A stretch of 64,000 nucleotides of DNA from Muribaculaceae bacterium (GTDB taxonomy: Bacteria > Bacillota > Clostridia > Lachnospirales > Lachnospiraceae): contig JAMPCA010000001.1 in assembly GCA_023666425.1 (NCBI GenBank), positions 889,329 to 953,328 on the forward strand, in the 5' to 3' direction. The notes under the pieces are model-generated. The model was not told the DNA's origin. It saw only the letters and a program-made list of their open reading frames with translations, and ran no database searches. Positions 101 to 51,556 of the stretch are shown here, in pieces. A program made the translations under genes and the position numbers. Positions within the stretch are counted from its first letter, which is position 1, and every line of letters starts with the position of its first letter.

Positions 101-155
101 TCTGATTTTTCAAAATTCAAATATTCGGAAAATGAGAACAAAATACTACACATAC

Positions 156-186
156 GAAAAAAGACCCTGCATAGCAGGATCTTTTT
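156..186 (-). terminator. Terminator of the sugar ABC transporter operon
   Basis: On the minus strand GATCCTGC and GCAGGGTC form a stem (one G-U pair) with a 3-base loop, followed by TTTTTT. It lies about 50 bases beyond the permease stop codon. The opposite strand could also form it, but with a mismatch. Confidence 0.8.
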
Positions 187-237
187 CCGTATAAATACTT
201 TTAGGGGAGAAAAAAAACTATAAAAAAGATAATAAGC

Positions 238-1074
238 TTATTCTTTTACCGCTCCAGCAGCGATACTACTGATAATATACTTGGAGAAGCAGGTAAACAC
301 AATCAGGATCGGAATAACGGAAATCGCAACTGCGAGATAAATCGCACCCTGATTTTTTGTAATCTCCGTGGACGCCTTAAGGGTCGCCATCATAACCGGA
401 AGTGTAAACTTCTCCTTCTTGTTCAGTATGATCATGGGAAGCAGGTAGTTATTCCAGTTCCCGATAAAGCCCATGATTGCCATGGTCGCAAGACCCGGTG
501 ACATCATCGGAAGACCAATGCGGTGGAAGATGTAGAGCTCTCCCGCTCCGTCAATTCTTGCCGCCTCAATCAGTGAGGGAGGCATTACCGACAGCACATA
601 CTGTCTGAGGAAGAATACTGTTCCCGGAGCTGCAATTGCCGGAATAATCAACGGTATGTATGAGTTTACCAGATGCAGCTTCGTACAGAGATTGTAGAAA
701 CCGATCAGTCCGAGCTGTCCCGGAATCATCATAAAGATGAGGATTACGGTAAAGATCAGCTTGTTGCCCTTAAACTTATACATTGCCAGCGCATAGGCCG
801 TCAATGCTGAGAAATAAGCTCCCAGCGCTGTGGCAGGAATCGCCACCTTGATACTGTTCCACATTCCCTGAAACAGATTGAAATAGCTGAATACGGCTTC
901 CCAGTTTTCCTTGATATGGGAACTCGGAAGCAGGGAGAAGGAGGTCACAATCTCCGCTCCGCTTCTCGTAGCGTTGACAATCATCAGCCAAAATGGCAGG
1001 AAGCACAACACCGCAAGGAGAGTCAACAGGAAATAGAGGATTCCTTTTTTTATCTTATAACCGATTCCATTCAT
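238..1074 (-). CDS. Carbohydrate ABC transporter permease, MalG/AraQ type
   Basis: Inner-membrane permease of a CUT1 sugar importer, 278 residues, the usual size for this family. It has an N-terminal membrane segment near residues 10-32 and further hydrophobic segments. The cytoplasmic EAA loop that contacts the ATPase reads EAARIDGAGE (about residues 170-180). The ATG follows AAGGAGG by 9 bases, and this ribosome-binding site lies inside the last codons of the upstream permease, so the two are translationally close. It would pair with the permease at 1079-2005 and the binding protein at 2099-3538. No ATPase gene is present here; such importers often share an MsmK/MalK ATPase encoded elsewhere. 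Substrate is inferred from the neighbouring phosphorylases: beta-gluco-oligosaccharide. Confidence 0.9.
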   Translation of the reverse strand: MNGIGYKIKKGILYFLLTLLAVLCFLPFWLMIVNATRSGAEIVTSFSLLPSSHIKENWEAVFSYFNLFQGMWNSIKVAIPATALGAYFSALTAYALAMYKFKGNKLIFTVILIFMMIPGQLGLIGFYNLCTKLHLVNSYIPLIIPAIAAPGTVFFLRQYVLSVMPPSLIEAARIDGAGELYIFHRIGLPMMSPGLATMAIMGFIGNWNNYLLPMIILNKKEKFTLPVMMATLKASTEITKNQGAIYLAVAISVIPILIVFTCFSKYIISSIAAGAVKE

Positions 1075-1078
1075 ACGC

Positions 1079-2005
1079 CTAATCCTCCTTCTTATTGAAC
1101 AGCTTCATCTGCACAAGAGATACTGCCAAAATAATGACAAAGATTACATAGGCAATTGCGGAAGCAAAGCCCGTCTGTGTAGTTCCGGTGGTAAATCCAA
1201 ATTTATACATGTACATAATCGCTGTGTATACCGAGTTGTAGGATGCACTTGACGGAGTAACCATCAGGTAGGGCAGATCGAACATCTGCAGACCACCGAT
1301 TAAGGAGGTAATCGCCACATACATGAGCATCGGCTTTAAAAGCGGTAATGTGATTTTTCCAAATGTCGTCCATCTTCCGGCGCCGTCGATGGCTGCTGCC
1401 TCAAAATAATCCTTGGGAATACCCTGCACACCTGCCATCAGCATGATAAAGGAGTTACCAAACCACATCCATGCCTGAATCACTGCGATGGTATTGCCAG
1501 CTGTCCCGGATTGGCCAAGCCAGTCGATTGGATTGTAGGTCGCACCAAAGAAATTAAATATATTCGTAATAATCTGATTAAGAGTTCCGTATCTCCAGTC
1601 CAAAAGCGTCTGGAAAAGAAATGCGATGGAGGTCGCCGCAATCAAATTCGGCAGATAGTAAACGATACGGTAAACTTTAAGTCCCTTCATCTTATACTTG
1701 ATATCGCTGAACACGATAGTCAAAAGAAACGCAAGTCCCAGCTGGAGTACGATATTAACGCCCCAGATCTTGACCGTGTTCCAAAGTCCGCGCCAGAAGA
1801 ACTTATCCGTAATCGCGCGCACATAATTTTCAAACCATACCCAGTGGGTCTCTCCAACGCCTGCTATTTTTGCGTCTGTAAAACTCAGATACAATGTCCG
1901 GAATACCGGATATACACTAAAAATCAAGAATACAACCACAAACGGCAGGACAAACAGATAGCCCATATGGTCATATGTCTTAAGTCCCTTCTTTTTTTTG
2001 CCCAT
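1079..2005 (-). CDS. Carbohydrate ABC transporter permease, MalF/UgpA type
   Basis: Second inner-membrane permease of the CUT1 importer, 308 residues. After a lysine-rich N-terminus (MGKKKKGLK) come several hydrophobic segments and the EAA loop EAAAIDGAGRW. I chose the start at 2005 rather than the upstream in-frame ATG at 2047 because GGGGAG lies 9 bases before it and because family members begin shortly before the first membrane segment. Its stop is 4 bases before the next permease. It is likely co-transcribed with the binding protein upstream (about 90-base gap). Confidence 0.9.
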   Translation of the reverse strand: MGKKKKGLKTYDHMGYLFVLPFVVVFLIFSVYPVFRTLYLSFTDAKIAGVGETHWVWFENYVRAITDKFFWRGLWNTVKIWGVNIVLQLGLAFLLTIVFSDIKYKMKGLKVYRIVYYLPNLIAATSIAFLFQTLLDWRYGTLNQIITNIFNFFGATYNPIDWLGQSGTAGNTIAVIQAWMWFGNSFIMLMAGVQGIPKDYFEAAAIDGAGRWTTFGKITLPLLKPMLMYVAITSLIGGLQMFDLPYLMVTPSSASYNSVYTAIMYMYKFGFTTGTTQTGFASAIAYVIFVIILAVSLVQMKLFNKKED

Positions 2006-2098
2006 AAGCCACATCTCCCCATCTTGGTGATGGCAGCCCGCAGACAATCCTGCGGGCTGCCCATGTCAACATGTCACTTTGTCAGTTTCCGCTGTATA

Positions 2099-3538
2099 TT
2101 ACCGCTCAATCACAAGATCCGGGTATGTTGCCTGTACGGTGTCATAGAACTCCGCAATCGCATCGTCCTTTGACTTCTGTCCAGTCTTTACCTGGGAAAT
2201 TGCTGTGCCCCAAGCGTCGCCGATCAGCTTGTCATAACGTGTAACCTTGGTGTAGTCGATCAGCTCAGCCTGATCCTGCCAGAAGCTGAACAGATTCTGT
2301 CCGCCGTATGTTGCATTCTCATCGTTTGCATGCTTCTCAAGTGTAGCAACAAGAGCCGGAGTATCGCCCTGGGAGAAATCGATCCACCAGTCAGCGGTAT
2401 CAGGATTCAGAGTACAGAACTTTACGAACTCCCATGCTGTCTGCTGACGCTCGGACTGGGAAGAAATACCAACATATGTACCACCACCGAAGCCTGAGCA
2501 CGGTCCTGCACATACACCCCAGCTGCCGGAGGTATCGCCTACATGGTCACGAAGAGTAAGTACGCCCCAGGAAGGAAGTCCATATGCAAATACGCTGGTC
2601 TTATCCATGTCTGCTGTTGCCTCGTTGAAAGATGCCTCATCCCAAACGTTTACGGAATCATCTGCGTAGTTCTGGATATCAGCGGTCAGGATCGGCACCT
2701 CGCCTGCCATTGCCTGATACCACGGTGTAGACCACTGGTTTGCGTATGCGGTCAAATCATCCTGATACAGAGATACAACCAGATCCATGTAATCGGTTCT
2801 GCTCTGGCTTACATTCAGCTTGCCGTCGATTACCCATGCGCTGTCGCCTGAGAAGTAGCTCAGCTCGGAGTCGGAAGCGAAGATTCTGTAGCCCTTGTCC
2901 TTTAACTTCTTTGCGGTGTCAAGAATGGTCGGATAGTCTGCAAAGAGCTTGCCAACCTCTGCCGGGTCGTCGGTTCCAAATACATCCTGTGCGATATCTC
3001 TTCTGTAATAGAAGCCTGCCGGTGTGATCTGGTAGGTGATGGCTCTCTGTGTGCCGTCTGCATCCTGGCCAACCTTCCAAACGTAATCTACAACCTGCCC
3101 CTCGTAATCCTTTGCGCCGAAGTCGTCAAGGTTTGCAAAGAAGCCTGCATCGTAGAAGTCCTCAAGCATCTGGGGCTCGCCGCAGATGATATCCGGCTCT
3201 GTCTCGCCTGCCAGAAGTGCGGTCTGGATCTTGGTCGGGTAGTCGCCGGCCTCGGAAACTACGATCGCCTCTGCCTCGATTCCGGTCTCCTCGGTAAACT
3301 TGGCAGCGATGTCCACCAGGTCGTTGGTGAATGTCCAGATTACGAGCTTGCCCTCTGCGTCTGTGCTGCCAGCATTGCTGTCGTCGCCGCCAGCGTTGTC
3401 ATCTGTCGCTGTGCCGCCAGCCTGGGAGCTGTCACCGCCGTTGTTGTTACTGCTGCTATCGTCTCCGCCGCCGCAGGCTGCCAGAGAAAATGCCATCGTT
3501 CCAACGAGTAATGCTGATACTACTTTTTTCCATTTCAT
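2099..3538 (-). CDS. Sugar ABC transporter solute-binding lipoprotein
   Basis: 479 residues. A lipoprotein signal peptide (MKWKKVVSALLVGTMAFSLAAC, Cys at 22) is followed by a Gly/Ser/Asp-rich linker to about residue 62 and a periplasmic-binding-protein fold (bacterial extracellular solute-binding family 1). It should be anchored on the outer face of the membrane and deliver oligosaccharide to the two permeases downstream. Start is well set by AAGGAGG. The gap of 108 bases upstream to the GH30 gene is AT-rich and holds a TATAAT, so an additional promoter boosting the binding protein is possible, as often seen, but the -35 is weak. Confidence 0.92.
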   Translation of the reverse strand: MKWKKVVSALLVGTMAFSLAACGGGDDSSSNNNGGDSSQAGGTATDDNAGGDDSNAGSTDAEGKLVIWTFTNDLVDIAAKFTEETGIEAEAIVVSEAGDYPTKIQTALLAGETEPDIICGEPQMLEDFYDAGFFANLDDFGAKDYEGQVVDYVWKVGQDADGTQRAITYQITPAGFYYRRDIAQDVFGTDDPAEVGKLFADYPTILDTAKKLKDKGYRIFASDSELSYFSGDSAWVIDGKLNVSQSRTDYMDLVVSLYQDDLTAYANQWSTPWYQAMAGEVPILTADIQNYADDSVNVWDEASFNEATADMDKTSVFAYGLPSWGVLTLRDHVGDTSGSWGVCAGPCSGFGGGTYVGISSQSERQQTAWEFVKFCTLNPDTADWWIDFSQGDTPALVATLEKHANDENATYGGQNLFSFWQDQAELIDYTKVTRYDKLIGDAWGTAISQVKTGQKSKDDAIAEFYDTVQATYPDLVIER

Positions 3539-3645
3539 ATAATTTTCCTCCTTTTTGATTCAACTTCTTTTGTTGATAATGTCATTATATATACATTCTG
3601 CATTGTATAAAATATACTGAATTTTAAAATGGTGTCATTTTTTTA

Positions 3646-4983
3646 TTAAATAATCACATAAGTGACAATACAGTGAGCCGGTACCGTCTCATGTATGCGC
3701 GCGCCGCCCTCGCACAGCTCAAGCTCCTTTGGCGCATCCGTGCGGTTTAAGACGATGGCGACACGGCTTTTGTCCGGATTTTCAAAGGCCACAAGCTCAA
3801 GGTCTGTGGTATAGCGGGTGCTCCCGATGCGCACCGCACCCTTTTGCACATAGCGGCTGAACTGCCCGATATAGTAGTAGGTCAGGCGCTTCTCAAAGGT
3901 GTTTTCCGTGGGATTGCACATAATCGGCGCCGCACAGAAATTGCCCACATGGTTCGGCCCGCCCTTCTCGTCCAAAAACAGGTTCCAGTCCAGATAGGAG
4001 GTGATTCCCGCCGCAAGGTTCCCCAGCATGTCGTGCGCGTACATCTCCGCCTTATAAGTCTCCCTCGTGTCAGCAAAGCGGGAGTACTCCACACAGCCCT
4101 CGGAAAAGATCACTTTTGCGTCCGGGTAGCATTTTTTCACCAGCTCGATGGCCTCAAAATGGTCGCCCGTATACCAGTGAACGGCGGCGCCTTTGATATA
4201 TCCTGCCGCCTTCGGGTTCTCCATGGAGCCGGAAAAACGGTCAAAGAGTATCTCTTTATTGTGATCCCACACAAAAATCTCCACGTCTGAGAGTCCTGCC
4301 TCCTCCAGCGCAGGCCCGAGATGATCCGCCACAAACTCCGCTTCCTCGGAGGCGGAATAGATGCAGGAGTCCCATGTCTGGACTGCCGCAGGCTCGTTCT
4401 GCACCGTGAGCGCTGTGATATTCACGCCCTTCTCCCGGTATGCCTGAATGAATTTCACAAAATACTGTGCCCACAGCGGATAGTATTCCTTTTTTAGCTG
4501 TCCGCCGTGGTTCATCTCGCCATTGGTCTTCATAAAGGCAGGCGGCGACCACGGGGATACTAAAAATACCATCTTTTCCTGCTTTTGCGCTTCCACTGCC
4601 GCGCGAAGCAGCGGAAGGATCTCCGCCTCGTCCCGCGAAATATCAAAGCTCTCTAAGGTCCCGTCTCCTTCTTTAATATAAGTATAGTTGCCGAGGCCGA
4701 AGTCACAGCTGTTCATGTGCACACGGCCGATGTTGTAGCGCAGGCCGCTCTCTCCAAAATACGCCTCTACCAGCTCTTTTCTTTTCTCTTCGCCCATTCC
4801 CATGTAATTGTGGGCGCTGGCTTCGGTGAACGCGCCCCCGAAGCCCTCAATGGTCTGGTATTTCACCTGCGGGTAGAGGTTTAAGACATGCATGACGTCC
4901 TCCTGCCCTGCCAGCGCAACTGCGCTCTCCTCCCAGAGCTTTCCCTCCGCCTCGCAAGTGATGATTTTCTTAATACTCTTCAT
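3646..4983 (-). CDS. Glycoside hydrolase family 30 enzyme
   Basis: 445 residues, no signal peptide, so probably cytoplasmic. It matches GH30 (glucosylceramidase-like, TIM barrel with a beta-sandwich). The acid/base glutamate is in TVQNEPA (E197) and the nucleophile in FSEGC (E295); the N-terminal IEGFGGAFTEA is also typical. GH30 covers beta-glucosidase, beta-1,6-glucanase, beta-xylosidase and glucuronoxylanase. In this context, next to beta-1,3-glucan phosphorylase-like genes, hydrolysis of beta-1,6 branches or beta-glucosides is plausible but is an inference. GGGAGG precedes the ATG; the gap to the upstream phosphorylase is about 9 bases, so they form an operon. Confidence 0.88.
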   Translation of the reverse strand: MKSIKKIITCEAEGKLWEESAVALAGQEDVMHVLNLYPQVKYQTIEGFGGAFTEASAHNYMGMGEEKRKELVEAYFGESGLRYNIGRVHMNSCDFGLGNYTYIKEGDGTLESFDISRDEAEILPLLRAAVEAQKQEKMVFLVSPWSPPAFMKTNGEMNHGGQLKKEYYPLWAQYFVKFIQAYREKGVNITALTVQNEPAAVQTWDSCIYSASEEAEFVADHLGPALEEAGLSDVEIFVWDHNKEILFDRFSGSMENPKAAGYIKGAAVHWYTGDHFEAIELVKKCYPDAKVIFSEGCVEYSRFADTRETYKAEMYAHDMLGNLAAGITSYLDWNLFLDEKGGPNHVGNFCAAPIMCNPTENTFEKRLTYYYIGQFSRYVQKGAVRIGSTRYTTDLELVAFENPDKSRVAIVLNRTDAPKELELCEGGARIHETVPAHCIVTYVII

Positions 4984-4992
4984 TGCGCCTCC

Positions 4993-7900
4993 CTATTTGA
5001 CATTGACACAAATACTCTTAATCCTGCCCTCGCGGATCTCCTCCGCCAGCGGGGAGGGCACTTCCCCTCCGTTAATCTGCGCCGCCGTGCCGTCTCCGCG
5101 CGTAATCTCCATGCCCGTGATCCCGTAGCTGCCCGGGAAGTAATCCCTTCTCTCCGCAAAGCGGTAAGTCACTTCCACACCGCTTAAGAGCATCGCCGTA
5201 ACTGTGCCGTCCTCTGCGATCAGATACTCGGGAACCGCAGGCGCAAGGACAAGCTTGAGGCCGTCCTCACCGCAGACAAAGGGCGTTTTTCCAAACATCA
5301 TAATCTTCCACATGTGTAAAAACTCTACCGTGGAGCCGGAAAGACGCGCGACAAAGCCCTTGCCGTGAATCTTTTTATTGGGATTTTTGCTGCTGGCGAT
5401 AAAGGAAGAATTCTCCAGCGTGCTCCTCCCGTATACCTTTTCGTCCAAAAACGGTATGACCGCTTTGTGGAAATCCTCTGCAAACTCCGGGTACATGCCG
5501 GACTTTAAAAGCTCCAGCAGATACTTGTACTCCATGTGCAGCCAGATGGACTCGTTTTCCAGCCAGCCCGGCGTAAATGCGCGGGCGCGCCCCAGCTCGT
5601 AGCTTGCCTCCTGCAGGGAAGCGTTCACTTTATACATGGAGAGCTTCTCGTCGTAAAGGTCACTGTTTTTGACGTTCTCGTAGAGATCTTTCTTCGTCTT
5701 TGCCTCCAGCGGCAGCTTCAGATAGCGCACCGGACCTTCTAAGAAACAGGGTACGGAGCGCACCTCAAAGTCAAGCGGTACGATTCCCTCCTCCGTCTCT
5801 CTGTAGTCGGTCACCTCGTAGGTAAAGTAGGTGGGAATGATTCCCTGTCCGTATCCGGCTGCCTTCTCAAGACCATGGTTTACGACATCCAGACAGCCCT
5901 CAAGCATCCGGGCAAGCTCTTCCGCCGTATAGGAGGTGCGCTTTCCTGACACGCCCTGATAGGTCTTGTCGCGGTAGATTTCCTTCGCGTCGTTGATCTT
6001 GTTCCAGAAGGAGATTACCTGGTCTTTGCCAAACAGATTCTCGTTCTCAAGGCGGTTGATCAGCTCCAGCTCGCTGATAAAGCTTCCCAGCTCTGTCAGC
6101 AGCTTAATCTCTCTGGGATAGCGGCGCAGGGCGCCAATCGTGTATTCAAGCATCCGGGCAAGCTCGCAGGCCTCCGCCACAGACGAGCCCAGCATTCCCG
6201 GCATTCCGTTCAGCGCGTCGTACCAGCCGGGCTTTCCTCCCTCCATCTCGATACCCATGCCGTAGGGGTCTAACGCCGCAAACTTGGTCGCGCACAACAG
6301 CAAAAGCTTCTCCACAAGCGTCGTGCGGATGATCTCGCCCTCGCCGAAGTCGGCGCGCACCAGCTTCTCCTTCGTGCTGCGCTTCGTCGCCTCGTTTAAG
6401 GCATGGTACTGGCGGATGCCGTTTGCGGTCTTTTCATAGCGGCGGAACCTGTGGTTGATATTCACCTGCGAGAGGAAAAAGCTGTAAGCCTGCTCATAGA
6501 GCATCTCCTCCTCCTCCTCCGGGAATACGCTTAAGTATTCCTCGATCAGATCCAGATTGTAATCCCAGTGGTCGCTCCAGTAGCCCTCGCCAAAGTTGCC
6601 GTTCACCAGGCTCTCCGCAAAATCAATCATAGAATCAAAGAGCTTCTCCGCCTTTTTCTCTCCCACCGCCCCGGTGAGCGCGGCATAGAGCCTGCCCGGC
6701 GTAAACTGCCCGGTCACTAAGGCCATGAGCTTCTGCCTCTTCTCTGCGTCCAGCTCCTTTAGAATCAGGCGCGCCTTGTCCTCCGCCACAGTGTAGGTCA
6801 GCTTCTCCACCCCGAGAGGATTGTAGCCGTCGAGCTGAACCAGACTGTAGAAGGTGTGGATATTCTCCCTGCCCACGAAGGGAGAGAAGAAGGTGTCCAG
6901 CCTCCGGTTCTGGTTCACATCCCGGAAATTGCCATTTCCCTGGGAGTAGAACTCCGGCAGCATGGAAAAGTAATTGTAATCCCGCTCCAGATCCCCGTGC
7001 TTTCTGGAATATACATAGAAAATCTTATTGTGTCCCAGCGGAATCGGGAAACCGCCCCGCAGGATATTGTCCATGTAGGTGTATTTGCAATACGCGTCGA
7101 AGCGGCCGTTGCCTGTCCTGGTGGTGATTCCGGCCACCAGATCCTCCACAAGGGCGATGGCGCGCGCTTCTTTTTGTTCAAAGTAGTCAGCCGTCAGGGA
7201 GTTTTTCAGAAATCCCGTCAGGATTTCCTTGCTCTCCACCTGACCGATCACCTCAAAGAGCGTCATGCTCTCTCCCGCCGCCAGTGTCTTCTCCTTTAAG
7301 AAGAAGCAGCAGGGAAGCAGATTCGAGTAGTTCTCCTCCTCTGCCCGCACTGCGGAGATACCGCCCTCCATAAAGGTCACAGGCTTTTCCAGCGAATTGT
7401 CATAGGCAAATAACGCCTCCGGGTCTACCACTACGGGAAGACGCTCGCCCTCCCCGTCGATTCCCAGCGCGAAATTGCCGCCCTCCACGATGGAGACTGC
7501 CGCCGTATCGCCCATGCTGGCACGCACTCTGTAGTAGGGTACGCCGGTCGCACTGTCCTCTACCTGCATCCACGCCTTTCCGGTCTGCGTCATGTTCTTC
7601 ATGCTGTCGATGCCCACGCCGTAAGGAATCAGGGCGGGCATTCCGTCGCAGAGCTCTATCCGCGCGGGAGAATCTCCGGTATTTTTCACGGTCAGCCGCC
7701 GCACGAGCGCTCCCACCGGCTCCTCCGGCAGGGTAAAATAGGAAACGGTAACTGCAAGCTGCTGTTCGGGCAGCTCCTCGGAAATCTCCAGCCGGTTCAT
7801 GCCGATCTCCATGCGGTGGGGTCTGTTCTCATCGGAAAAGCTCTCCACATAAGCGCCGTCCCGCCGCAGGAAGGTGCGGAAGCCCGTGCGCTTTACGTTC

Positions 7901-8103
7901 TGGTAAGCCATGTGGGCGGGATAAAATTCCATGATCGCGTGATCCTTGTTGTCCACGCCAAAGCTCACGACCCCCTGCCCGCGGTTCACATAATAGCACC
8001 AGATCGGGATGCCCTTCACGCCCGCGATTCCCGGCAGAAAGCTTGCAAAGGTAGATTCTTTTCCATAATTTTCAAGTGTAAATGTCTCTGTCTGTCTGCT
8101 CAT
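4993..8103 (-). CDS. GH149/GH161-like beta-1,3-oligoglucan phosphorylase
   Basis: 1036 residues, cytoplasmic. The overall plan is that of GH94-clan phosphorylases: N-terminal beta-sandwich, helical linker, (alpha/alpha)6 barrel and C-terminal beta domain. It lacks the DWND motif of GH94; instead it has [11 protein letters not shown] around residue 511, which I recognise as typical of the larger GH149/GH161 enzymes that phosphorolyse beta-1,3-gluco-oligosaccharides to glucose 1-phosphate. The catalytic Asp would be D511. The length (family about 1,000-1,200) agrees. It lies between the GH30 and GH94 genes with short gaps, and AGAGGGAG precedes the ATG. Which of the two families it belongs to, and its chain-length preference, cannot be settled by eye. 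Confidence 0.72.
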
Positions 8104-8125
8104 ATAAACTCCCTCTTATTCTTTA

Positions 8126-10825
8126 TTATTTGCTTTTTGCCCCAAGCAGCACATGAATCCGGTGCATTCTGCGTGCGTCTAAGGCCGTAACCGTATTCTT
8201 GTCAAAGGTTTTGGAAGAAGCGTGTACCTCCTCCGTCTTCTCGTCCAGGCGGATCTCCTGAATCTCATAGCTGCCGGTCTCCAGACGCTGTGGGTTCTCA
8301 ATGGTCAGCTTCCATGTGATTCCCAAAAGCTTTAAGTCCAGCCCCGCGAGATTCTGCTCGTCAAACTGCTCTGCGAGGAGGGCAGGCTGTACGATCAGTC
8401 CTCCGCCGCTTCCCCTTATGCCGAACATCTGCGTGATCACGGTCAGCATGTACCAGCTCGCCGCGCCGGTCAGGTAGTGGTAAAGCCCCCTGCCGTTCCG
8501 GCCGAAGTACTCCGGTATGCCCGGATAGATACGGCTCTTCTCGAAGTCCATGGACTGTCTGTAGAGCGCATTTAACGCCTTGTAGCCCTCCTTCGCAAAG
8601 CCCCGGCTGTAAAGAGCATTGGCGTACATCACGGCCATGTGGGAGAACACTGCGCCGTTCTCCTTCTCCCCGAAGGCGAAGCCGAACATGCGCCCCATAT
8701 CGGTCTTTAACTCCTTAAAATCTGTGTTCAGGCGGTAACCGCCGCAGCCCTCGTCGTACAGATACGCGTCCGCCGCGCGCACGATCTGGGGAATCTGCTC
8801 CTCTGTGGCCGTCCCCGCCATGATGGAAAATACCTGGCCGGTCAGCATCATGCGCACATTTCCTGCCTCGTCGATGCCCTCCACGCGCCTGCCGTGATCA
8901 TCGTAGTAGCTGTTGTACCAGCCGCCCTGTGAATCCTCGATCCACTCGCGCTCTCTGATGTGCTCCATCAGCCATTTTGCCTTGCCCTCCAGATTCTCTG
9001 CGACCTGCAGCGTATCCAGCCTTGCGCTGTTGCCGCTTATGCTGTGCCTGCACTGCTCCATATAGGTATGTAATACTGCGCTCTTGCCCTGCACGCTGTC
9101 GTAGCCGTCCCCTCTGTCTGTGACCAGCGGTACAAGCTCCTCAAAAATCTCCAGCCCGGAAACGCCGTTTTCCGCCTCGCTCCGAAGGACAGCCGCCAGA
9201 TTTTTCATGTTCATGGCATAGGCGTTGGTAAATGCCACGCTCTCGCCCCGTCTCCCCGCCATATCCAGCGCGTCGTTCCAGTCCGCGTCACGGAGCCGCA
9301 TGTGGTTGTGCTCGCCCACCTCGTAAAAAGCCGTGAGCATCTGCACCAGCAGGTGCTCCAGCACTGTGCCCTCGTAACAGTGCCCCCTTGCATCCTCCTG
9401 CCACTGGCCGCCGTTCCACGCCTCGTCCACCGCGGTGCCGCGCATGACCTGTCTGTCCTTAAAGTATTTTGCCTTCTGGTACAGAATCCCGTAGTCTCCC
9501 GTCTGGTCGAGATACAGCATCGTCGTCACGCAGGGCCATACGCCGTGATCCATCCACACTCTGGTGATGGAATTGCGGTCAGCCTTAAACTCGCCGAGAC
9601 AGTCCCCGATGATCGTCGCGTTGCTCCCGTCCACCCGGACGCCGCCGAAATTGCCGATCAGCATCTGCCTCACCGTCGCCGGATTCATAAGTAAAAGCGC
9701 CAGACAGTCCTGCCAGAGATCGCGCCAGCCTCTTCCTCCCCTGCCGTAGTCGTGATGGGGAAGGAAGGAACAGCCGAAGATCCGGCGCAGCTCCGGCTGG
9801 AAGCTCACCCAGTTCATAAACTGGTCAAAGTTCTCATCCGCGGTGTGATAGTGCACATTCGCCTTGCCGATCCAGTACTGTCTGGTCAGCTCCAGCTCTT
9901 CCTTTACTTTATTTTTTCCCATGTAGGTCAAAATCTCTTCGCCGCCGGCTTCCTTCCAGCTTGCCCCGAGTATGACCGTGTAGGATGCGCTCTCCTGCGG
10001 GCGCAGCTCTCTCTCTGCAAAACGCAGGCCTCCCAGCGCCTCCTGCCCGTTTAACTCCGTGCCCGCAGGTACGCCGGGTCTGTCGCAGCAGACTGCTTCC
10101 GGGCGGGTCGGCGTCCCGCCTGCGCCCCAGAAATCGTCCTGGCAGGGATAAAAGCTCTGCGGCTTTTCATTCTCCCCCGCAAAGCCCTCCACGAAATAGG
10201 TCATGTCGTTCAGCCCGTGTCCCCGCTCATCAAAGGAGAGTGTCGGACATACGCGCACGCCGTACCCGGTGGTCACGATCCGGTGCAGCAGGGAGGTCAC
10301 ATGTCTGTGGTCGCGCAGGTTGTCCGCGCTCCTTGCATAGATGGGAATCGCCGCCACCGCTGTGAGCACAGCCGGCTCTTCACCGGTATTCGTGATCTCC
10401 ACATGCATCACCTCGACATTGTGGCGGATCGACACAAAAGAGGTCACTTTCGCCGAAAGGCCGAGCTCTGCGGACTCCCGCTCCGTCTCGTGCCACATCA
10501 GCCCCGCCCGCACCTTCGACGGCTCCTGCCGTCCGGTAAAGCGGTCGGCCTCCTGCCGCGCCGAGGCGCCCACGGCTGACCACGGCTCCTTTCCCTTTAC
10601 CATGCACCAAAAATTCCTCCCGGCGCGGTTGTTGGTCAAATTTTCTATACTCATGGGCTCCAGCAAAAAGTGATTCTGATCCAGCTTGCTGTCGCCGCTC
10701 AAATTGGGGGAGACGGCGCTCTTTAATCCATCCTCCCCGGCCAGTGGAAAGTAGAGTCCCAGATCGTTCTCCGCCCCCTCCAGCTCAAAGCTCCCGTGTT
10801 CATCAATAAACCGATATCCCATCAT
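8126..10825 (-). CDS. GH94 phosphorylase, laminaribiose/cellobiose type
   Basis: 900 residues, no signal peptide. N-terminal GYRFIDEHGSF and the RNFWCM segment belong to the GH94 beta-sandwich; the catalytic acid lies in RDADWNDALD (D515), and GRGGRGWRDLWQD is the conserved barrel entrance. It should convert a beta-glucosyl disaccharide and phosphate to glucose and glucose 1-phosphate. The N-terminus resembles laminaribiose phosphorylase-like members more than cellobiose phosphorylase, and the neighbour is a beta-1,3-type phosphorylase, so laminaribiose is the favoured substrate. I placed the start at the ATG at 10825 after AAGGGG; an upstream TTG at 10843 lacks a ribosome-binding site. Confidence 0.85.
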   Translation of the reverse strand: MMGYRFIDEHGSFELEGAENDLGLYFPLAGEDGLKSAVSPNLSGDSKLDQNHFLLEPMSIENLTNNRAGRNFWCMVKGKEPWSAVGASARQEADRFTGRQEPSKVRAGLMWHETERESAELGLSAKVTSFVSIRHNVEVMHVEITNTGEEPAVLTAVAAIPIYARSADNLRDHRHVTSLLHRIVTTGYGVRVCPTLSFDERGHGLNDMTYFVEGFAGENEKPQSFYPCQDDFWGAGGTPTRPEAVCCDRPGVPAGTELNGQEALGGLRFAERELRPQESASYTVILGASWKEAGGEEILTYMGKNKVKEELELTRQYWIGKANVHYHTADENFDQFMNWVSFQPELRRIFGCSFLPHHDYGRGGRGWRDLWQDCLALLLMNPATVRQMLIGNFGGVRVDGSNATIIGDCLGEFKADRNSITRVWMDHGVWPCVTTMLYLDQTGDYGILYQKAKYFKDRQVMRGTAVDEAWNGGQWQEDARGHCYEGTVLEHLLVQMLTAFYEVGEHNHMRLRDADWNDALDMAGRRGESVAFTNAYAMNMKNLAAVLRSEAENGVSGLEIFEELVPLVTDRGDGYDSVQGKSAVLHTYMEQCRHSISGNSARLDTLQVAENLEGKAKWLMEHIREREWIEDSQGGWYNSYYDDHGRRVEGIDEAGNVRMMLTGQVFSIMAGTATEEQIPQIVRAADAYLYDEGCGGYRLNTDFKELKTDMGRMFGFAFGEKENGAVFSHMAVMYANALYSRGFAKEGYKALNALYRQSMDFEKSRIYPGIPEYFGRNGRGLYHYLTGAASWYMLTVITQMFGIRGSGGGLIVQPALLAEQFDEQNLAGLDLKLLGITWKLTIENPQRLETGSYEIQEIRLDEKTEEVHASSKTFDKNTVTALDARRMHRIHVLLGAKSK

Positions 10826-10865
10826 AACCCACGCCCCTTCCAATTTCTTAGTGCTTCTATTATAT

Positions 10866-10898
10866 AAAAAAATGGAACCCTAAAATAAGGTTCCATTT
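10866..10898 (-). terminator. Terminator between beta-helix gene and GH94 gene
   Basis: On the minus strand a stem AAATGGAACC/GGTTCCATTT with an A/T-rich 9-base loop is followed by seven T residues. It lies 20 bases beyond the beta-helix protein stop and before GH94. It may fully end the upstream transcript or attenuate it. Confidence 0.7.
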
Positions 10899-10918
10899 AT
10901 CAGTTAGGTATCTTTTTT

Positions 10919-12757
10919 TTACCGCGCCGCGCCATTCTCATATTCCAGCAGAATCTGGCGCTCTCCCGTCCTTATGACGGCTCCGCCGCTGTCGTTTATG
11001 ATATGCTCCATGCCCGGATAGCCGTTCAGCATGACAGTACAGATGTGCTCCACCCGCACCCCCGGCGCGTCCGGGCATTCCATCGCACTGTGCAGGCGCA
11101 CCGGAATATCCCGGTTGTACAGATAGATGCCAAGCCCCGTCGCGTAAAAGTCCGTCACGGAATCCGCCACATGGAAGGAGGAATAGCCATCCACAGTCCC
11201 GTCATGGCTCAGCCACGCGCTCTGGCTGGGAACGTCGTAGGGAATCTCGCTCTGGTACATGTACACCCTGCCCCCGTTTCCGTTCCACACCGTCTGCCAT
11301 TCATTGAAATGCTCGACCATAAGCGCATAGATCTGCACGTCGTCCCCGTTGACGATGAGACCGTTTTTCGCCGTGTTTTTATCCCACGCCACCTGGTCTC
11401 CGTGATCCGCACGCCATACCCAGAAGTTGTCTCCCACCACGTCATCGCTATGTATCGTGATGCACGCCTCCACCGTTGCCGGAGCACTGGTGGGTGCGCC
11501 TCCGACCCTGAAATAGAGGTCTGAGAGCACGATGGGGAGTTCCTTCTCCCCTGCTTTTTCTCCGGTTCCGACGACCATCAGGTTGTCCGCCTTTATGCTT
11601 CCCGCGTCGAACAGGAGACCCGCAACCATGATCCCGCTCTCGTCCGCCACCTGCAGGCAGACATTTCCGTCTGTGGATTCCAGTGTGGCCAGACCCATCC
11701 CCAGCACAACCGTGTCGGCCTGCTCCACACAGAGCGGAGCGTCGAGACGGTAGACGCCGGGCGTCAGCAGAAGATTTTTCCCACCGGCCAGCGCGGCATT
11801 GATCGTCTCCGCCGTGTCCGTCTCCGCCTTTGCCACATAGAAATCCCCTATGCCGACAATAACGTCCGTCTCCGCTCCCATGCGCTTTCTCTCACGGTCG
11901 CTGACCCAGCGCACCTCACTGTCTTCTGACCAGCTTACGCCTGTACTGTTTTGCCTAAGCCCCGGGATACAGACGCCAAAGCCCTCCTTTTCGTCCCATA
12001 CGAGGAAGGGCTTCTCCCGCATGAGCCCGGTATTCTCCACCTCGGTGTATGCCCTGACGGGCCACGTCCCCCCGGGCGCACAGCCCTCCGCCTCGCCGAC
12101 AAAGACCATGTTCCAGTTCTCGCCCATCCATGCCGCCCACTCGCTGTTGCGCGCAAGCCACTGCTGCTGGGAGCCGGAATCCACCAGCCTCGTAATCTTA
12201 GAATCTGCCAGAAAGCCGCCGCTGCACCAGCCGTACTCGTCATGGAGATAGAGCGCGCCCCCGACCTGTATGCGGCGCACATCTGTGGCCTGCGACACCG
12301 CCCAGACGGTGTTGCTGCCGATGGCTATATTCTCGAGGCTTCTCCAGAAATTACAGCAGGCGTTGTGGTTGTTCTCGTCCTCCCCCAGCCAGCGGGCGAG
12401 GCAGGAGAGTCCCGCCAGCCTCGTGTCGCCCGGATATGTCCCAAGCCCCGCGACCTGCGTGTAAAAGCCCACCTCCGGCTGAATGCTTTCATCGTACTCT
12501 CCCGGCAGAAAGTAAAACGCATAGCGTTCCCCGCCGAACTGGTTCGTCTCCTGCACGTCGTAGACGTCCGCGAGAAGCTGCGCCACCACGGCCGGGTCGT
12601 CCTCCGGTGAAAAGATATAGACGTTTTCCCCGAAAAGTTCGCTGTGATAATCCGTAATTTTCATGCCATCGTCCTTTCCCGCAGCCCCGCCTGCCGCCAG
12701 ACACAAAAGCGCCGCCATGACCGCCACAAGAGCCGCCGAAAGCATCCTCTTTCCCAT
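10919..12757 (-). CDS. Secreted right-handed beta-helix protein
   Basis: 612 residues. A signal peptide (hydrophobic core LSAALVAVMAALLCLAAGG) is followed by a pectate-lyase-like beta-helix. I recognise it as a relative of secreted actinobacterial proteins often mislabelled 'adenylyl cyclase': shared blocks include NQFGGERYAF, GFYTQVAGLG, NFWRSLEN, SGSQQQWLARNS, NGDDVQIYAL and VEHFNEWQTVWNG. GH55 beta-1,3-glucanases also have a beta-helix, and the neighbours process beta-1,3-type oligosaccharides, so an extracellular glucanase is a reasonable idea, not shown. The start at 12757 is preferred over the ATG at 12781 because AGAAAGAGG lies 9 bases upstream. It is separated from the GH94 gene by a terminator. 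Confidence 0.7.
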   Translation of the reverse strand: MGKRMLSAALVAVMAALLCLAAGGAAGKDDGMKITDYHSELFGENVYIFSPEDDPAVVAQLLADVYDVQETNQFGGERYAFYFLPGEYDESIQPEVGFYTQVAGLGTYPGDTRLAGLSCLARWLGEDENNHNACCNFWRSLENIAIGSNTVWAVSQATDVRRIQVGGALYLHDEYGWCSGGFLADSKITRLVDSGSQQQWLARNSEWAAWMGENWNMVFVGEAEGCAPGGTWPVRAYTEVENTGLMREKPFLVWDEKEGFGVCIPGLRQNSTGVSWSEDSEVRWVSDRERKRMGAETDVIVGIGDFYVAKAETDTAETINAALAGGKNLLLTPGVYRLDAPLCVEQADTVVLGMGLATLESTDGNVCLQVADESGIMVAGLLFDAGSIKADNLMVVGTGEKAGEKELPIVLSDLYFRVGGAPTSAPATVEACITIHSDDVVGDNFWVWRADHGDQVAWDKNTAKNGLIVNGDDVQIYALMVEHFNEWQTVWNGNGGRVYMYQSEIPYDVPSQSAWLSHDGTVDGYSSFHVADSVTDFYATGLGIYLYNRDIPVRLHSAMECPDAPGVRVEHICTVMLNGYPGMEHIINDSGGAVIRTGERQILLEYENGAAR

Positions 12758-12800
12758 CACGCCATCCCTCTTTCTTCCCATTTTCTTTATAAAAAATTTT

Positions 12801-13463
12801 CTAAAGCATATTGTTGGCCGCTAAAATGTTACTATACTGGAACATGATGTGGTTTTGCGTAATCAGGCTGGCTCCTGCATTGTTCGTAGGCCAGTCCAGC
12901 TGTGTCCCGCGCGCATCCCCCCGGTGATAGGGCGAGTAGAAAAGATTTCTCGGGTCATTGGCAATATTGGCAATCGCATCATCGAATTCCTGGGTCATTA
13001 TATTCAGGTCTTTAGAAAATCGAATAAACGGAATGGCGGCATACCCTGCCCCCACACCATTTAACAGTGCAATCACACCATTGATGCCATTGATTGCATT
13101 TCCAACAGTCTGGTTTATCAGCCAGTTATTCACAATCGCCGCCGCTATGCGGGCATATGGCGCATGATGGTTACAATTCCCCACTCTCCCATTAAACACA
13201 AAAGCATTCTGCCTCTCCCCGTCCCTGAGGGCGACCCGCTGATAATGATTGACCGCTAATATAATAGAATTTATCTGCAGGTCAAAATTGAATAAATTTC
13301 CATACTGGATCGTTGTGGCGCACTGTATGACATCCTCCGGCGAATCGTAGTAATGCTCTCCATTAAGAAACAGATAGCCCGGCTTTTGTGATTTTACTTT
13401 GGAGATACTCTCCATAACTGCTGCGCTTCTTTTTTCTTCCGGCTTCTCCAAATAGCTGTACAT
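12801..13463 (-). CDS. Unknown 220-residue protein in the nadBC operon
   Basis: I do not recognise this protein. It begins MYSYLEKPEEKRSAAVM, has no signal peptide, one helix-prone Gly/Ala/Ile-rich central stretch (about residues 115-148, GNAINGINGVIALLNGVGAG) that might be membrane-active or simply hydrophobic, and a His pair in GNCNHHAPYARI. GGGGAG precedes the ATG by a few bases, and the nadC stop is only 13 bases upstream, so it is translated from the same message as nadB-nadC. The base composition is visibly more AT-rich than its neighbours, a sign of acquisition. No role in NAD synthesis can be supported. Confidence 0.75.
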   Translation of the reverse strand: MYSYLEKPEEKRSAAVMESISKVKSQKPGYLFLNGEHYYDSPEDVIQCATTIQYGNLFNFDLQINSIILAVNHYQRVALRDGERQNAFVFNGRVGNCNHHAPYARIAAAIVNNWLINQTVGNAINGINGVIALLNGVGAGYAAIPFIRFSKDLNIMTQEFDDAIANIANDPRNLFYSPYHRGDARGTQLDWPTNNAGASLITQNHIMFQYSNILAANNML

Positions 13464-47345: not shown

Positions 47346-47922
47346 CTGTACACATATAAGTCTACCACCACATGACATATCATTTAAGCATTTATGGCGC
47401 AAACGGCCTCATCCGGATAACCTTCCTCCGGATCATACATATCCGCATCAAGCAATCCTATACTCACAATTCCCACATATTCCGGATGATCCAGATATAC
47501 ATTATATGCATGGTGTATAAATGTATATGTCTTCCCGGTACTTGTCTTCAATTCTACCATTGATTCAATTCTTTCTACCGTTATCCCTCTCATCTCTTCT
47601 GATTCCAAGCCGTCACGGCCTGAATGTATTATATCATACGATACGATCTCACCATCAACAAAATCAATCCATTCCTCTATCTCTCCCTCCAGATCCGAAT
47701 GTTGTTCCTTGGCATATGAACAGAATTGTTCCATAATAATTGCAGGATCTTTTTCCTTAATCCCCGTCATAATTGCCTCGACCTGCCCATCCGCAATTTG
47801 TTTCGGTGACTTCCACTCTCCTTCCTTTCCACATCCCCCCAGCAAAAGTGCAGCCACCATCAGCGCAACCATAAAAGTTCTAATTCTTCGGCCTTCCATC
47901 ATACGATTCCCTTCCATAATAA
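47346..47922. repeat. Duplicated unit, copy 2
   Basis: Second copy of the direct repeat described at 46749-47327; its upstream end lies inside the 3' end of the large protein gene, which shows that the copy nearest to the large gene is the original position. Confidence 0.85.
47384..47902 (-). CDS. Lipoprotein, tandem copy 2 (DUF5104-like)
   Basis: 172 residues from the ATG at 47902 (GGAAGGG 6 bases upstream). Lipobox LLLGGCGKEG. Its first 23 bases overlap the end of the 1179-residue protein gene in another frame, so translation is coupled to it. Close paralogue of copy 1. Extracytoplasmic membrane anchoring, overlap with a large secreted protein, and duplication are what one expects of an immunity or partner protein, but no such role is known for this family. 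Confidence 0.82.
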   Translation of the reverse strand: MMEGRRIRTFMVALMVAALLLGGCGKEGEWKSPKQIADGQVEAIMTGIKEKDPAIIMEQFCSYAKEQHSDLEGEIEEWIDFVDGEIVSYDIIHSGRDGLESEEMRGITVERIESMVELKTSTGKTYTFIHHAYNVYLDHPEYVGIVSIGLLDADMYDPEEGYPDEAVCAINA

Positions 47923-50900
47923 TAAATCCATACTGTTTTATTTTCATCATCAAATATGAGATAGTCACTATATTTGTTTTTACTGTTGCTTTTCTTTTCT
48001 ATTTCAGCAGTTGCTTTCAAAGCCTCATAGATTGCCGTCGCATTATGCTCCCCGGTCTCAGACAAATCTACAGATCCGACAAAGACCATCTTGCCTGGAT
48101 TTGGATACAAGTATTTGGTATTGTATCCGGTGAAGCCCGTAATCCACCACTGCTTCTGGCTGGGCGCCCAGTTAAATAAAGTATCAATATCATTCACGCC
48201 GTAATAATTGTACAAGCTCAATGTCATGGGCACCTCAAAATCAATCGCGTGATAATGCACTGTATTGTCGTCCCCGATATCGGTCAGCTCGTACAGCCCA
48301 ATTTCTGCTCCGCTGTGAACATTCCAGTAATCTCCCTTCCATATCCACAAGATATAATTCCCACCCTTAAAGGGCATATTGTTCATATTTGTTACAATCC
48401 GGAACACATCATCATATAAATCATTGTATCCAAAATATCTCTGCCAGGTCTCCGGCTGGGAGTGGTAGGCCATATTCTCATTATCGTACACAAAATTTAA
48501 AAAATATGCGCCTATAACGGTCTGAAATTCTTCGTTGCAGAACAGCTTAATCAGCATTGCCGCCGGCCGGAATACATCCCCATATTTATCAACCGGTCCC
48601 CGCAGCTTTATAATGAGTCCGACAATTACGTCCGCAATCTCCTGATTATTTGGAATGTCCTTATCAATTGCATTTTTGACCAATTCAGAAAACTCCGGCA
48701 CCTGAAATCCAAAATCATTTTTATACTCTGTACCTACCGTTCCATTGGTCTGCTGAATCACATGATTATTCCACATTCCCATCGGCCCATTGGGAATGAG
48801 GGGATCCGGGTCAGCCGGTGCTGCGATCCTTCCATTTGCCCACCGCGCAAAGCCATCATATAGGCCATCGCCATCCGAATCAATGCTGGTCGGATCCGAT
48901 TCGAATCTTCCAATCACCCTTACCTTTGTCTTGTCTGCGTTATATATGTATTTCAGCTCAACGATCTCCTCTCCATCAGGCAGACCATCTCCATCGGTAT
49001 CGGGATTATTTTTGTCAAGCTTAATCTCTACACCATTAAAAATTGCCATATGGTCTTCATAATAATCCGGAAGACCATCTCCATCGCTGTCAACCGTGAG
49101 GTCAATCCTCTCGTTAATATCCTGATAGATATCAGCAAGCTCATCCGCCTGCTCCGCCAGATAGAACTTTCCGGCTGTATCCACGGCTAAAGGCTTCATA
49201 TAGCTGGTAAAATATTCGCTGCTGTTTCCCAAACCTACTGTGTGAATTCTGATTTTTTTCTCATTTGCATTGCTTACTACTGCTGAATGCAGATATGTGT
49301 CAAAGGATTCTCCGTCACTCAGCACAATTATCATCTTCAACACATCATCATCTGTGGACTCAAACAGAGAAAATGCATTCAAAATGCCCAAATACATATT
49401 AGTACTTTCTTCTATTTGGAAATTATCTGGTTGTAAACAGTGTTTTGCCACATCTTTATTCTCTGTCAGAGTGGAAGTCAATTTGATGCTAGACCCCCAA
49501 AATTTTACCACCCCGATCTTACTTCCCTCCGGCAGCCTGTCTACCAGCTGTCTTGCCACTGTCAGTCTCTCATAATCAGGGTCATTTGTTATCATGCTGA
49601 TGGAGCTGTCAATAACAAATACAACCTCCAGCCCCGTAAAGCCACTGGTATCCCACTCATCTACCCATATGAAAGAATTCTCATACACCGTCCTGTTAAT
49701 CAGGATATACTTCGAAAAATGCTCTACATCTGCATAGGCCACATTTCCAGATACCCTCGTGGAAAGCGGCTCAAGCTCCTGCTCCTCCTCATTGAAATAA
49801 TAAATAACCGGGTCAAAGCCCTCCTGATCTAAAAGTGCTTTGTCAAAAGCAAAGCTGATTGTCGCTAAATCAAATGTACCTTCCACACTGAATTCATAGG
49901 CATCTCCGATATATCCCGGCATATCCTCCGGAAACAGGCATTCACTTCCCACTGGCGATACCTCCAGCGTCTCCACCTGCTTTCCCTCTAATGTAAGTTC
50001 AACAGCGGCCTGCACAGAATCCTCATTCTCTGAAACCTTTTTTATAATAAAGTCTTCCTCTTTCTTCAAAGGATCTGTCCCAAGTTCAATCTCTTTTCCA
50101 TCCGAAACACCGTCGCCATCGGTATCGGGAAGAAGTGGAGCCGTATGATAGATTTTTACCTCCTCGCCATCGCTCAGGCCATCCCCGTCGGTATCCTCAG
50201 AAAGCAGAGCTGTGCCATAGGGCAGCTCCCCAGCATTGCTCAGACCATCTCCATCGCAATCCTCATCTCCATCCTCCACGCCATTGCCGTCGGTATCCGA
50301 AAGTAATGGATCCGTTCCCAGATCATTGATTTCTATATAGTCCGAAATTCCATCTCCATCCGTGTCCGCTTTTCCGGGGTCTGTTCCCATCAACTCCTCA
50401 AATACATCTGCAATACTGTCTCCATCTGTATCCGTCTCATCCGCATAATGAAACCACTTGGCATAAAGTGTCAGATCCTCACAAACCGTTGTTTCCTCAA
50501 AATCAAAATAGTTTGTAAGTCCTCTGTCCGTATACCAGCCCATAAAGACATAATCATCTCTTGTCGGGCTTTCCGGCCTGACCACACAGCCCCCATTTTC
50601 CACCTTCTGAAGCCCCGGAATATTGCTTACATCCTCTGCCAGCACATCAAAAGAAACTCTTCTCTCCACCGATATTCCATAGGAGTACAAGTGAAAACTC
50701 TCCGGCTGTATCTCTTTGCTCCCACCCTCACCGGTAAAACCAAAGGAAATCGTCGTTCCTGCGGGAATATTAGCATTGTATCCATTATTTTTAATAACAT
50801 AATGCTCTCCCTCATGGGATTCAATCCTGCCGTTCCAGATATTGATAATCTCCCTGCCAAAATCAAATTCTAACACCCAGTCCTCAATTACCTGCTCTGA

Positions 50901-51435: not shown

Positions 51436-51470
51436 AAAAAAACGGCTGCAATGAATCATCACTGCAACCG
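51436..51470 (-). terminator. Riboswitch-linked terminator
   Basis: On the minus strand CGGTTGCAGTGA and TCATTGCAGCCG with a 4-base loop form a strong stem followed by seven T residues, 9 bases before the Shine-Dalgarno of the large gene. Its 5' arm overlaps the 3' end of the aptamer (GGTTGC), so ligand binding and termination should compete. Confidence 0.85.
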
Positions 51471-51556
51471 AACCGCCAGTATAGCAGACATGCTATCTGC
51501 TACTTAGGCTTCATGCTTTGCGTCCTTACGTTTCCATAAGTTTGCTCTTTTATAAA
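51464..51556 (-). promoter_or_regulatory. GEMM-I cyclic-dinucleotide riboswitch
   Basis: Minus strand shows the class I signature: GAGCAAAC, a 6-bp stem CTTATG/CGTAAG capped by GAAA, GGACGCAAAGC, GCCTAAG (tetraloop receptor side), a P3 stem TAGCAGA/TCTGCTA, and CTGGC closing with GCC, then GGTTCGGTTGC. GEMM-I RNAs bind c-di-GMP; a subset binds 3',3'-cGAMP. The base matching position 20 of the Vibrio Vc2 RNA appears to be A, not G, so ligand choice is open. The overlap with the terminator suggests an ON switch. Confidence 0.88.

Follow-up and report, generated by a model that had tools for sequence, protein, structure and literature searches.

A predicted beta-1,3-glucan utilization operon in a gut-type Lachnospiraceae bacterium, with a secreted GH55 enzyme and adjacent GH94 and GH161 phosphorylases

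Seven genes, all on the minus strand at positions 238-12781 of the DNA analyzed here (a window of 64,000 nucleotides from a gut-type Lachnospiraceae bacterium), very probably form an operon for the utilization of laminarin-like or fungal-wall-like beta-1,3-glucan through polymer trimming, import, and phosphorolysis. Pfam, NCBIfam, and matches to solved structures identified the genes as those of a CUT1 importer, a GH30 enzyme, a GH161 and a GH94 enzyme, and a secreted GH55 enzyme, with intergenic gaps of 4-107 nt. Fungal, yeast, and algal beta-1,3/1,6-glucans are common in animal diets, and to our knowledge their use by Gram-positive gut bacteria has been little worked out. The operon and its relatives represent a compact, testable pathway in many Lachnospiraceae that would run from a secreted GH55 to two sequential phosphorylases. 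The features of the locus, from upstream to downstream, are as follows.

10919..12781, minus strand: secreted GH55 enzyme, putative exo-beta-1,3-glucosidase/laminarinase, 620 aa, Sec signal peptide (phmmer match to 4pew)
10870..10898, minus strand: hairpin with T-run between the GH55 and GH94 genes (13-bp stem, -15.2 kcal/mol, z=-3.3)
8126..10843, minus strand: cytosolic 905-aa protein (TTG start), a predicted GH94 laminaribiose phosphorylase (PF17167, PF06165; match to 6ggy)
4993..8103, minus strand: predicted GH161 beta-1,3-oligoglucan phosphorylase, cytosolic, 1036 aa (full-length match to 9qqk/9h8v)
3646..4983, minus strand: cytosolic GH30 enzyme of the beta-glucosidase type, 445 aa, lacking a signal peptide (PF02055, E=2.4e-65; PF17189)
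2099..3538, minus strand: CUT1 solute-binding lipoprotein (SBP) (PF01547, E=2.4e-12; signal peptide, lipobox LAAC, Cys22)
1079..2047, minus strand: CUT1 permease, MalF/UgpA type (PF00528; NCBIfam UgpA/MalF-like)
238..1074, minus strand: final operon gene, a MalG/UgpE-type CUT1 permease (PF00528; NCBIfam GlcU/UgpE/MalG-like)
151..193, minus strand: intrinsic terminator at the operon end (20-bp stem; a 108-nt stretch folds at -30.8 kcal/mol, z=-6.5)

A sequence-only reading of this DNA had placed a CUT1 importer, GH30, phosphorylases, and a secreted protein together, and all of these were found. It had also proposed phosphorolytic use of beta-1,3-glucan oligosaccharides by a laminaribiose-type GH94 and a phosphorylase for longer chains; the family assignments of GH30, GH161, and GH94 held in Pfam/NCBIfam and against solved structures, and they support that proposal as a prediction. 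The GH94 and GH161 genes lie on one strand with a 22-nt gap between them and the importer genes alongside, which is the arrangement of a GH94-GH161 tandem locus. What had been called "GH149/GH161-like" proved to be GH161, matching the solved GH161 9qqk/9h8v over its full length with 1455 bits and GH149 6hq6 with only 43 bits; with a score of 97 bits against the NCBIfam GH149 model (cut-off, 1150), we rejected a GH149 identity. Its D629, in GWYDALNG, aligns where GH149 has PEWNDANN. The GH94 protein, which starts at a TTG codon (an ATG is present 6-7 codons further in), carries the catalytic Asp D524 in ADWND.

Sequence alone cannot give the operon's substrate. One alternative is that the true target is another beta-glucan (cellodextrins, mixed-linkage glucan, or beta-1,2-glucan) acted on by phosphorylases of other specificity. 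The GH94 family is multi-specific, "cellobiose phosphorylase" is the title of one of the solved GH161 structures, and a related Lachnospiraceae species handles mixed-linkage glucan with a cellodextrin phosphorylase of GH94 (PMC10318527). However, our GH94 protein matched the laminaribiose phosphorylase 6ggy over residues 7-902 with 924 bits, whereas the next GH94-like chain scored 85 bits and cellobiose or cellodextrin phosphorylases less than 80, and characterized GH161 and GH55 members indicate beta-1,3 links (PMC6484121, PMC10637969). We consider a different target glucan very improbable.

The product of the first gene had been described as a secreted beta-helix protein; it is indeed secreted, but rather than a beta-helix protein of unknown kind it is a GH55 enzyme, aligning with SacteLam55A (the Streptomyces sp. 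SirexAA-E GH55 exo-beta-1,3-glucosidase, 4pew) over residues 50-600 with an E value of 1.6e-114 (phmmer). We therefore dropped the view that the locus contains no laminarinase: a secreted glucanase is present, and only GH16 and GH3 are missing. Genome-wide searches for these two families found no GH16, in the locus or elsewhere, and six GH3 genes outside the locus. The two GH55 enzymes share 43% identity over aligned columns, two-domain beta-helix homology, and their catalytic residues, with 13 of the 16 active-site positions checked being identical. The general acid E512 (=E502) is kept, as are Y505, E490 (=E480), H481, Q164 (=Q174), S187 (=S198), W444, W446, and D449, so that all five of Glu502, Tyr505, Gln174, Ser198, and Glu480 (the last three belonging to the water-activating relay) are present. 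At T149, which is the fourth position of that relay, this protein has Cys, whereas its relatives have Thr, Leu, or Cys and MnLam55A has Glu. Cys also stands in place of Q150, which together with T149 lies beside subsite -1/-2 in SacteLam55A, and Leu stands in place of F144. The protein keeps the aromatic residues F152, W444, and W446, a block found in exo and endo enzymes alike (PMC10637969).

The GH30 protein retains the acid/base E197 and the nucleophile E295 within a GH30 barrel and beta-sandwich, and it is closest to SrfJ (2wnw, E=5.8e-109) and human GBA (glucocerebrosidase; 254 bits). No signal peptide was found in it and its N terminus is not hydrophobic (secretion signals were present in just two of the soluble proteins, GH55 and the SBP); therefore, debranching would be intracellular, on imported pieces. 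The GH30 had been suggested as a possible remover of beta-1,6 branches. The family assignment stood, but the nearest relatives are of the SrfJ/GBA type and not endo-beta-1,6-glucanases, and the linkage cleaved is probably beta-1,6. A secreted endo-beta-1,6-glucanase of the BT3312 type was not supported, as the protein has no signal peptide and scores 248 bits against the NCBIfam endo-beta-1,6-glucanase equivalog, for which the cut-off is 700. That the closest matches are enzymes for glucosylceramide-type substrates, rather than a proven beta-1,6-glucosidase, counts against our preferred explanation.

The SBP lipoprotein and the MalF- and MalG-type permeases make up a CUT1 importer whose ATPase lies outside the locus; the genome has a single gene for a MalK-type (MsmX/UgpC-type) ATPase (C22:92102). 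In the pathway that we propose, GH55 would cleave beta-1,3 links of the polymer extracellularly, and short gluco-oligosaccharides would be taken up by the SBP and the two permeases, probably energized by this ATPase. GH161 would take glucose 1-phosphate units off chains of at least three glucoses, down to laminaribiose, which GH94 would convert to glucose 1-phosphate and glucose, and GH30 would hydrolyze units attached at the side, such as gentiobiose or the stubs of branches (the linkage being probably beta-1,6), that are impassable to the phosphorylases. Glucose 1-phosphate would enter glycolysis via phosphoglucomutase with no ATP spent, and three PGM/PMM genes are present in the genome. A purely exo-acting GH55 yields mostly glucose and gentio-oligosaccharides, and as a consequence the source of laminari-oligosaccharides for GH161 would be unexplained unless GH55 makes internal cuts, the cell imports the short chains that GH55 leaves behind, or oligosaccharides come from other microbes. 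GH161 requires acceptors with a DP of 2 or more, and phosphorolysis of beta-1,3-glucan is known for PapP (PMC6484121).

The order (GH55)-GH94-GH161-(GH30)-SBP-permease-permease is repeated in dozens of Lachnospiraceae, and because it is conserved in so many other genomes, the grouping of these genes is not due to chance. GH94 lies immediately upstream of GH161 in 50 of the 65 related loci with enough flank, and the SBP and both permeases lie downstream in 40 of 58. GH55 lies upstream in 11 of 62; since most related loci do without it, GH55 is an accessory part. Cultured carriers with GH55 are Agathobacter ruminis JK623 and Lachnospiraceae XBD2001, and Konateibacter massiliensis is a carrier without it.

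The rarity of GH55 (11 of 62), the lack of GH16 in the genome, and the retention in GH55 of exo-enzyme residues, including the aromatic block (PMC10637969), would all fit a mainly scavenging way of life, in which laminari- and gentio-oligosaccharides freed by neighbors feed GH161, GH94, and GH30, with no reliance on the cell's own attack on polymer, and in which GH55 joined the operon in one clade and does no more than shorten arriving chains from their ends, giving glucose. On the other hand, GH55 heads the gene string, and its association with GH161 across the family is strong (of 299 Lachnospiraceae genomes, 14 have GH55, 33 have GH161, and 12 have both; Fisher P=3.3e-11); moreover, glucanases of GH17, GH64, GH81, or GH128 may be encoded elsewhere in the genome. 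We regard scavenging as a tentative possibility; it is a variant of our preferred explanation, and the two are not mutually exclusive. In a more specific form of the preferred explanation, which we think conceivable but unlikely, a variant GH55 line in a Lachnospiraceae clade is inherited with GH94-GH161 and feeds branched oligosaccharides to the importer and the phosphorylases, with the cytosolic GH30 debranching them. In this unlikely form, changes in the wall of subsite -1/-2 (Cys or Leu instead of T149 in many cases, Cys instead of Q150) would tune the product pattern, and the sensor module would lie physically apart from the operon in this genome. If true, it would describe how Gram-positive bacteria can process branched beta-1,3/1,6-glucan with debranching kept intracellular.

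GH16 and GH3 are absent from the locus, as the sequence-only reading had said. The set is less distinctive than that reading proposed, given its recurrence in Lachnospiraceae and its precedents from 2019 (PMC6484121). Because GH94-GH161 tandems with NBD-less importers, as well as GH161 loci with GH30, were described then, the operon belongs to a known kind. It shares with the Gram-positive tandem loci of Kuhaudomlarp et al. (PMC6484121) the adjoining genes for cytosolic GH94 and GH161 phosphorylases, an ABC importer of an SBP and two permeases without its own ATPase (GH161 genes co-localize with such importers), and the proposed stepwise breakdown of beta-1,3-gluco-oligosaccharides; however, the main text of that paper has no GH55, whereas the present operon has a secreted GH55 ahead of GH94 and a cytosolic GH30 after GH161. 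The Bacillus weihaiensis Alg07 laminarin locus (GH161, GH30, GH1, and GH16; PMC6484121) likewise combines GH161, GH30, and a secreted beta-1,3-glucanase, but there GH30 is predicted to be secreted, the laminarinase is GH16, and GH1 finishes the disaccharides, whereas the present locus has a cytosolic GH30 and a GH55 glucanase, and its GH94 would take the disaccharide. The mixed-linkage glucan locus of Blautia producta, also of the Lachnospiraceae, has a secreted glucanase, an SBP importer, and a cytosolic GH94, but it uses GH16 and a cellodextrin-type GH94 on beta-1,3/1,4-glucan, and the passages describing it mention neither a GH161 nor a GH55 gene (PMC10318527). What is new relative to the described loci is the GH55 partner (the main addition), a cytosolic rather than a secreted GH30, and a split regulon.

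A 220-aa ORF (12801-13463) had no Pfam or NCBIfam match and no homologue among 199 other genomes of the family. The hairpin between GH55 and GH94 is a possible internal terminator or attenuator, and as a result, co-transcription of GH55 with the remaining genes may be incomplete. In ~40 relatives, a second SBP and a two-component system lie downstream of the permeases. Here they are on another contig (C24), and a contig break does not account for their absence from the locus, as the contig around the operon is 1.2 Mb long and continues past the permeases with the terminator, DUF5674, and mraZ-mraW. The response regulator is frameshifted in this assembly, within C24:4600-4700, and the C24 triad comes after the end of another reading frame.

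The window occupies positions 889329-953328 of contig C11 (1.23 Mb) in a genome of 2.74 Mb that is 98% complete. Every operon gene was identified by profile searches and by comparison with solved structures, which gave the following set:

10919-12781, minus strand: GH55, matching Streptomyces SacteLam55A (PDB 4pew) over nearly the entire mature protein (E=1.6e-114)
8126-10843, minus strand: laminaribiose phosphorylase-type GH94, scoring 924 bits against 6ggy, catalytic Asp D524 kept
4993-8103, minus strand: GH161, 1455 bits to both solved GH161 sequences
3646-4983, minus strand: GH30, closest to SrfJ and human glucocerebrosidase, both catalytic Glu kept
238-3538, minus strand: CUT1 importer lacking its own ATPase, from profile matches

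The minus strand reads nadB, nadC, a 220-aa ORF, GH55, GH94, GH161, GH30, the solute-binding lipoprotein (SBP), two permeases and a terminator, with intergenic gaps of 4-107 nt within the operon gene set. A 13-bp hairpin with a T-run (10870-10898, minus strand) separates GH55 from GH94 and may mean that GH55 is expressed apart from the remaining genes. The 220-aa ORF (12801-13463, minus strand) lies 13 and 19 nt from nadC and GH55; it matched no Pfam or NCBIfam family and had no counterpart in the 199 other family genomes searched, and in a near-identical locus, L003, its middle part is deleted.

Other GH94-like chains score at most 85 bits against the GH94, and GH149 scores 43 bits against the GH161. 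In the GH161 search, the closest named relative was a Blautia sp. MAG (best segment, 97% identity), and the remaining matches were mainly Lachnospiraceae, Roseburia and Agathobacter among them. Several genomes of the same genus carry a second GH94 of the same type (L102-L110; 52-58% identity), remote from GH161 and in some cases close to a different CUT1 importer.

The GH55 begins with a hydrophobic signal peptide. With residues numbered as in PMC10637969, a scheme that transfers cleanly onto the SacteLam55A alignment, it keeps the general acid Glu502, Tyr505, Glu480, His481, Gln174 and Ser198, together with Trp444, Trp446, Asp449, Phe152 and the stacking Tyr194 and Trp196; the substitutions are Thr149 to Cys, Gln150 to Cys and Phe144 to Leu. 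The catalytic set is invariant in 29 relatives, and position 149 varies (Cys, Leu or Thr). In a quick tree, the GH55s adjoining GH94-GH161 grouped together, and one long branch (L129), a copy unlinked to GH161, fell outside. Because the subsite -1 residues are common to both GH55 types, the sequence does not decide between exo and endo action.

Exo GH55 enzymes release glucose and, at branches, gentio-oligosaccharides (PMC10637969). In general, their yield of laminari-oligosaccharides is low, and GH161 must then be fed otherwise: the operon GH55 might also cleave within chains, or the cell might take up remaining short chains together with oligosaccharides made by other microbes. The genome's one MalK/UgpC-type ATPase was located on another contig, C22. 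GH161 action ends at the disaccharide (PMC6484121), so the adjoining GH94 would finish what GH161 had shortened. Each phosphorylase step would give glucose 1-phosphate, which could enter glycolysis through one of the genome's three PGM/PMM-family genes. The GH30 has no signal peptide and scores far below the endo-β-1,6-glucanase equivalog cut-off of the NCBIfam profile. Since the substrate of SrfJ was unsettled according to a review (PMC3226326), the linkage cut by this GH30 is drawn from context, and a cytosolic enzyme cutting gentiobiose or branch stubs would fit the pathway.

Among 80 related loci picked by GH161 similarity, and hence representing close relatives rather than all GH161 loci, GH94 lay immediately upstream of GH161 in 50 of the 65 with enough flank, and the SBP and both permeases lay downstream in 40 of 58. 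GH30 downstream (15/58) and GH55 upstream (11/62) were less frequent. In a sample of 299 genomes from the family, drawn for the most part at one per genus, 14 had GH55, 33 had GH161 and 12 had both (p=3.3e-11, which assumes independent genomes and is weakened by shared ancestry); in at least five of these 12 (G000, the genome under study, and G088, G275, G316 and G331), the coordinates place both genes within about 6 kb of each other.

In ~40 relatives, three more genes come after the second permease and extend the operon; they encode another SBP, of ~540 aa, a histidine kinase resembling YesM, and a response regulator. A protein that combines a LacI-type sugar-binding part with a GGDEF domain is encoded close by in 15 loci. 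Here, none of these genes follows the permeases; the triad lies on contig C24 (280-5296; L146), with a LacI-GGDEF protein behind it, its SBP and kinase being 62% and 53% identical to their SUG1254 counterparts. The YesN-like regulator reads in two frames, the receiver part followed in the next frame by an AraC-type DNA-binding part recognised by eye, and is therefore frameshifted in the present assembly. Upstream on C24, the triad adjoins the end of a different reading frame; its separation from the operon thus looks like a rearrangement rather than a contig break. Methyl-accepting chemotaxis proteins are encoded upstream of GH94 in ~12 related loci (L044:5066-6841 and ~11 others) and, as a pair, beside the relocated module (L146:7257-9080 and 9557-11725); these positions suggest chemotaxis towards β-1,3-glucan products.

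A 2019 paper (PMC6484121) described tandem GH94-GH161 loci whose importers lack an ATPase, as well as GH161 accompanied by GH30; its main text does not mention GH55, and searching the literature for GH161 together with GH55 and GH30 returned unrelated papers only. The operon is therefore of an already known type, useful and testable without being a surprise, its variations being the GH55 partner, the cytosolic GH30 and the split regulon.

Elsewhere in the window, a c-di-GMP-I riboswitch (51460-51556, minus strand; 58 bits) precedes a gene (47880-51419, minus strand) for an 1179-aa protein that is probably a surface adhesin; it has TSP3 repeats, a VWA domain and two matches to CBM2.
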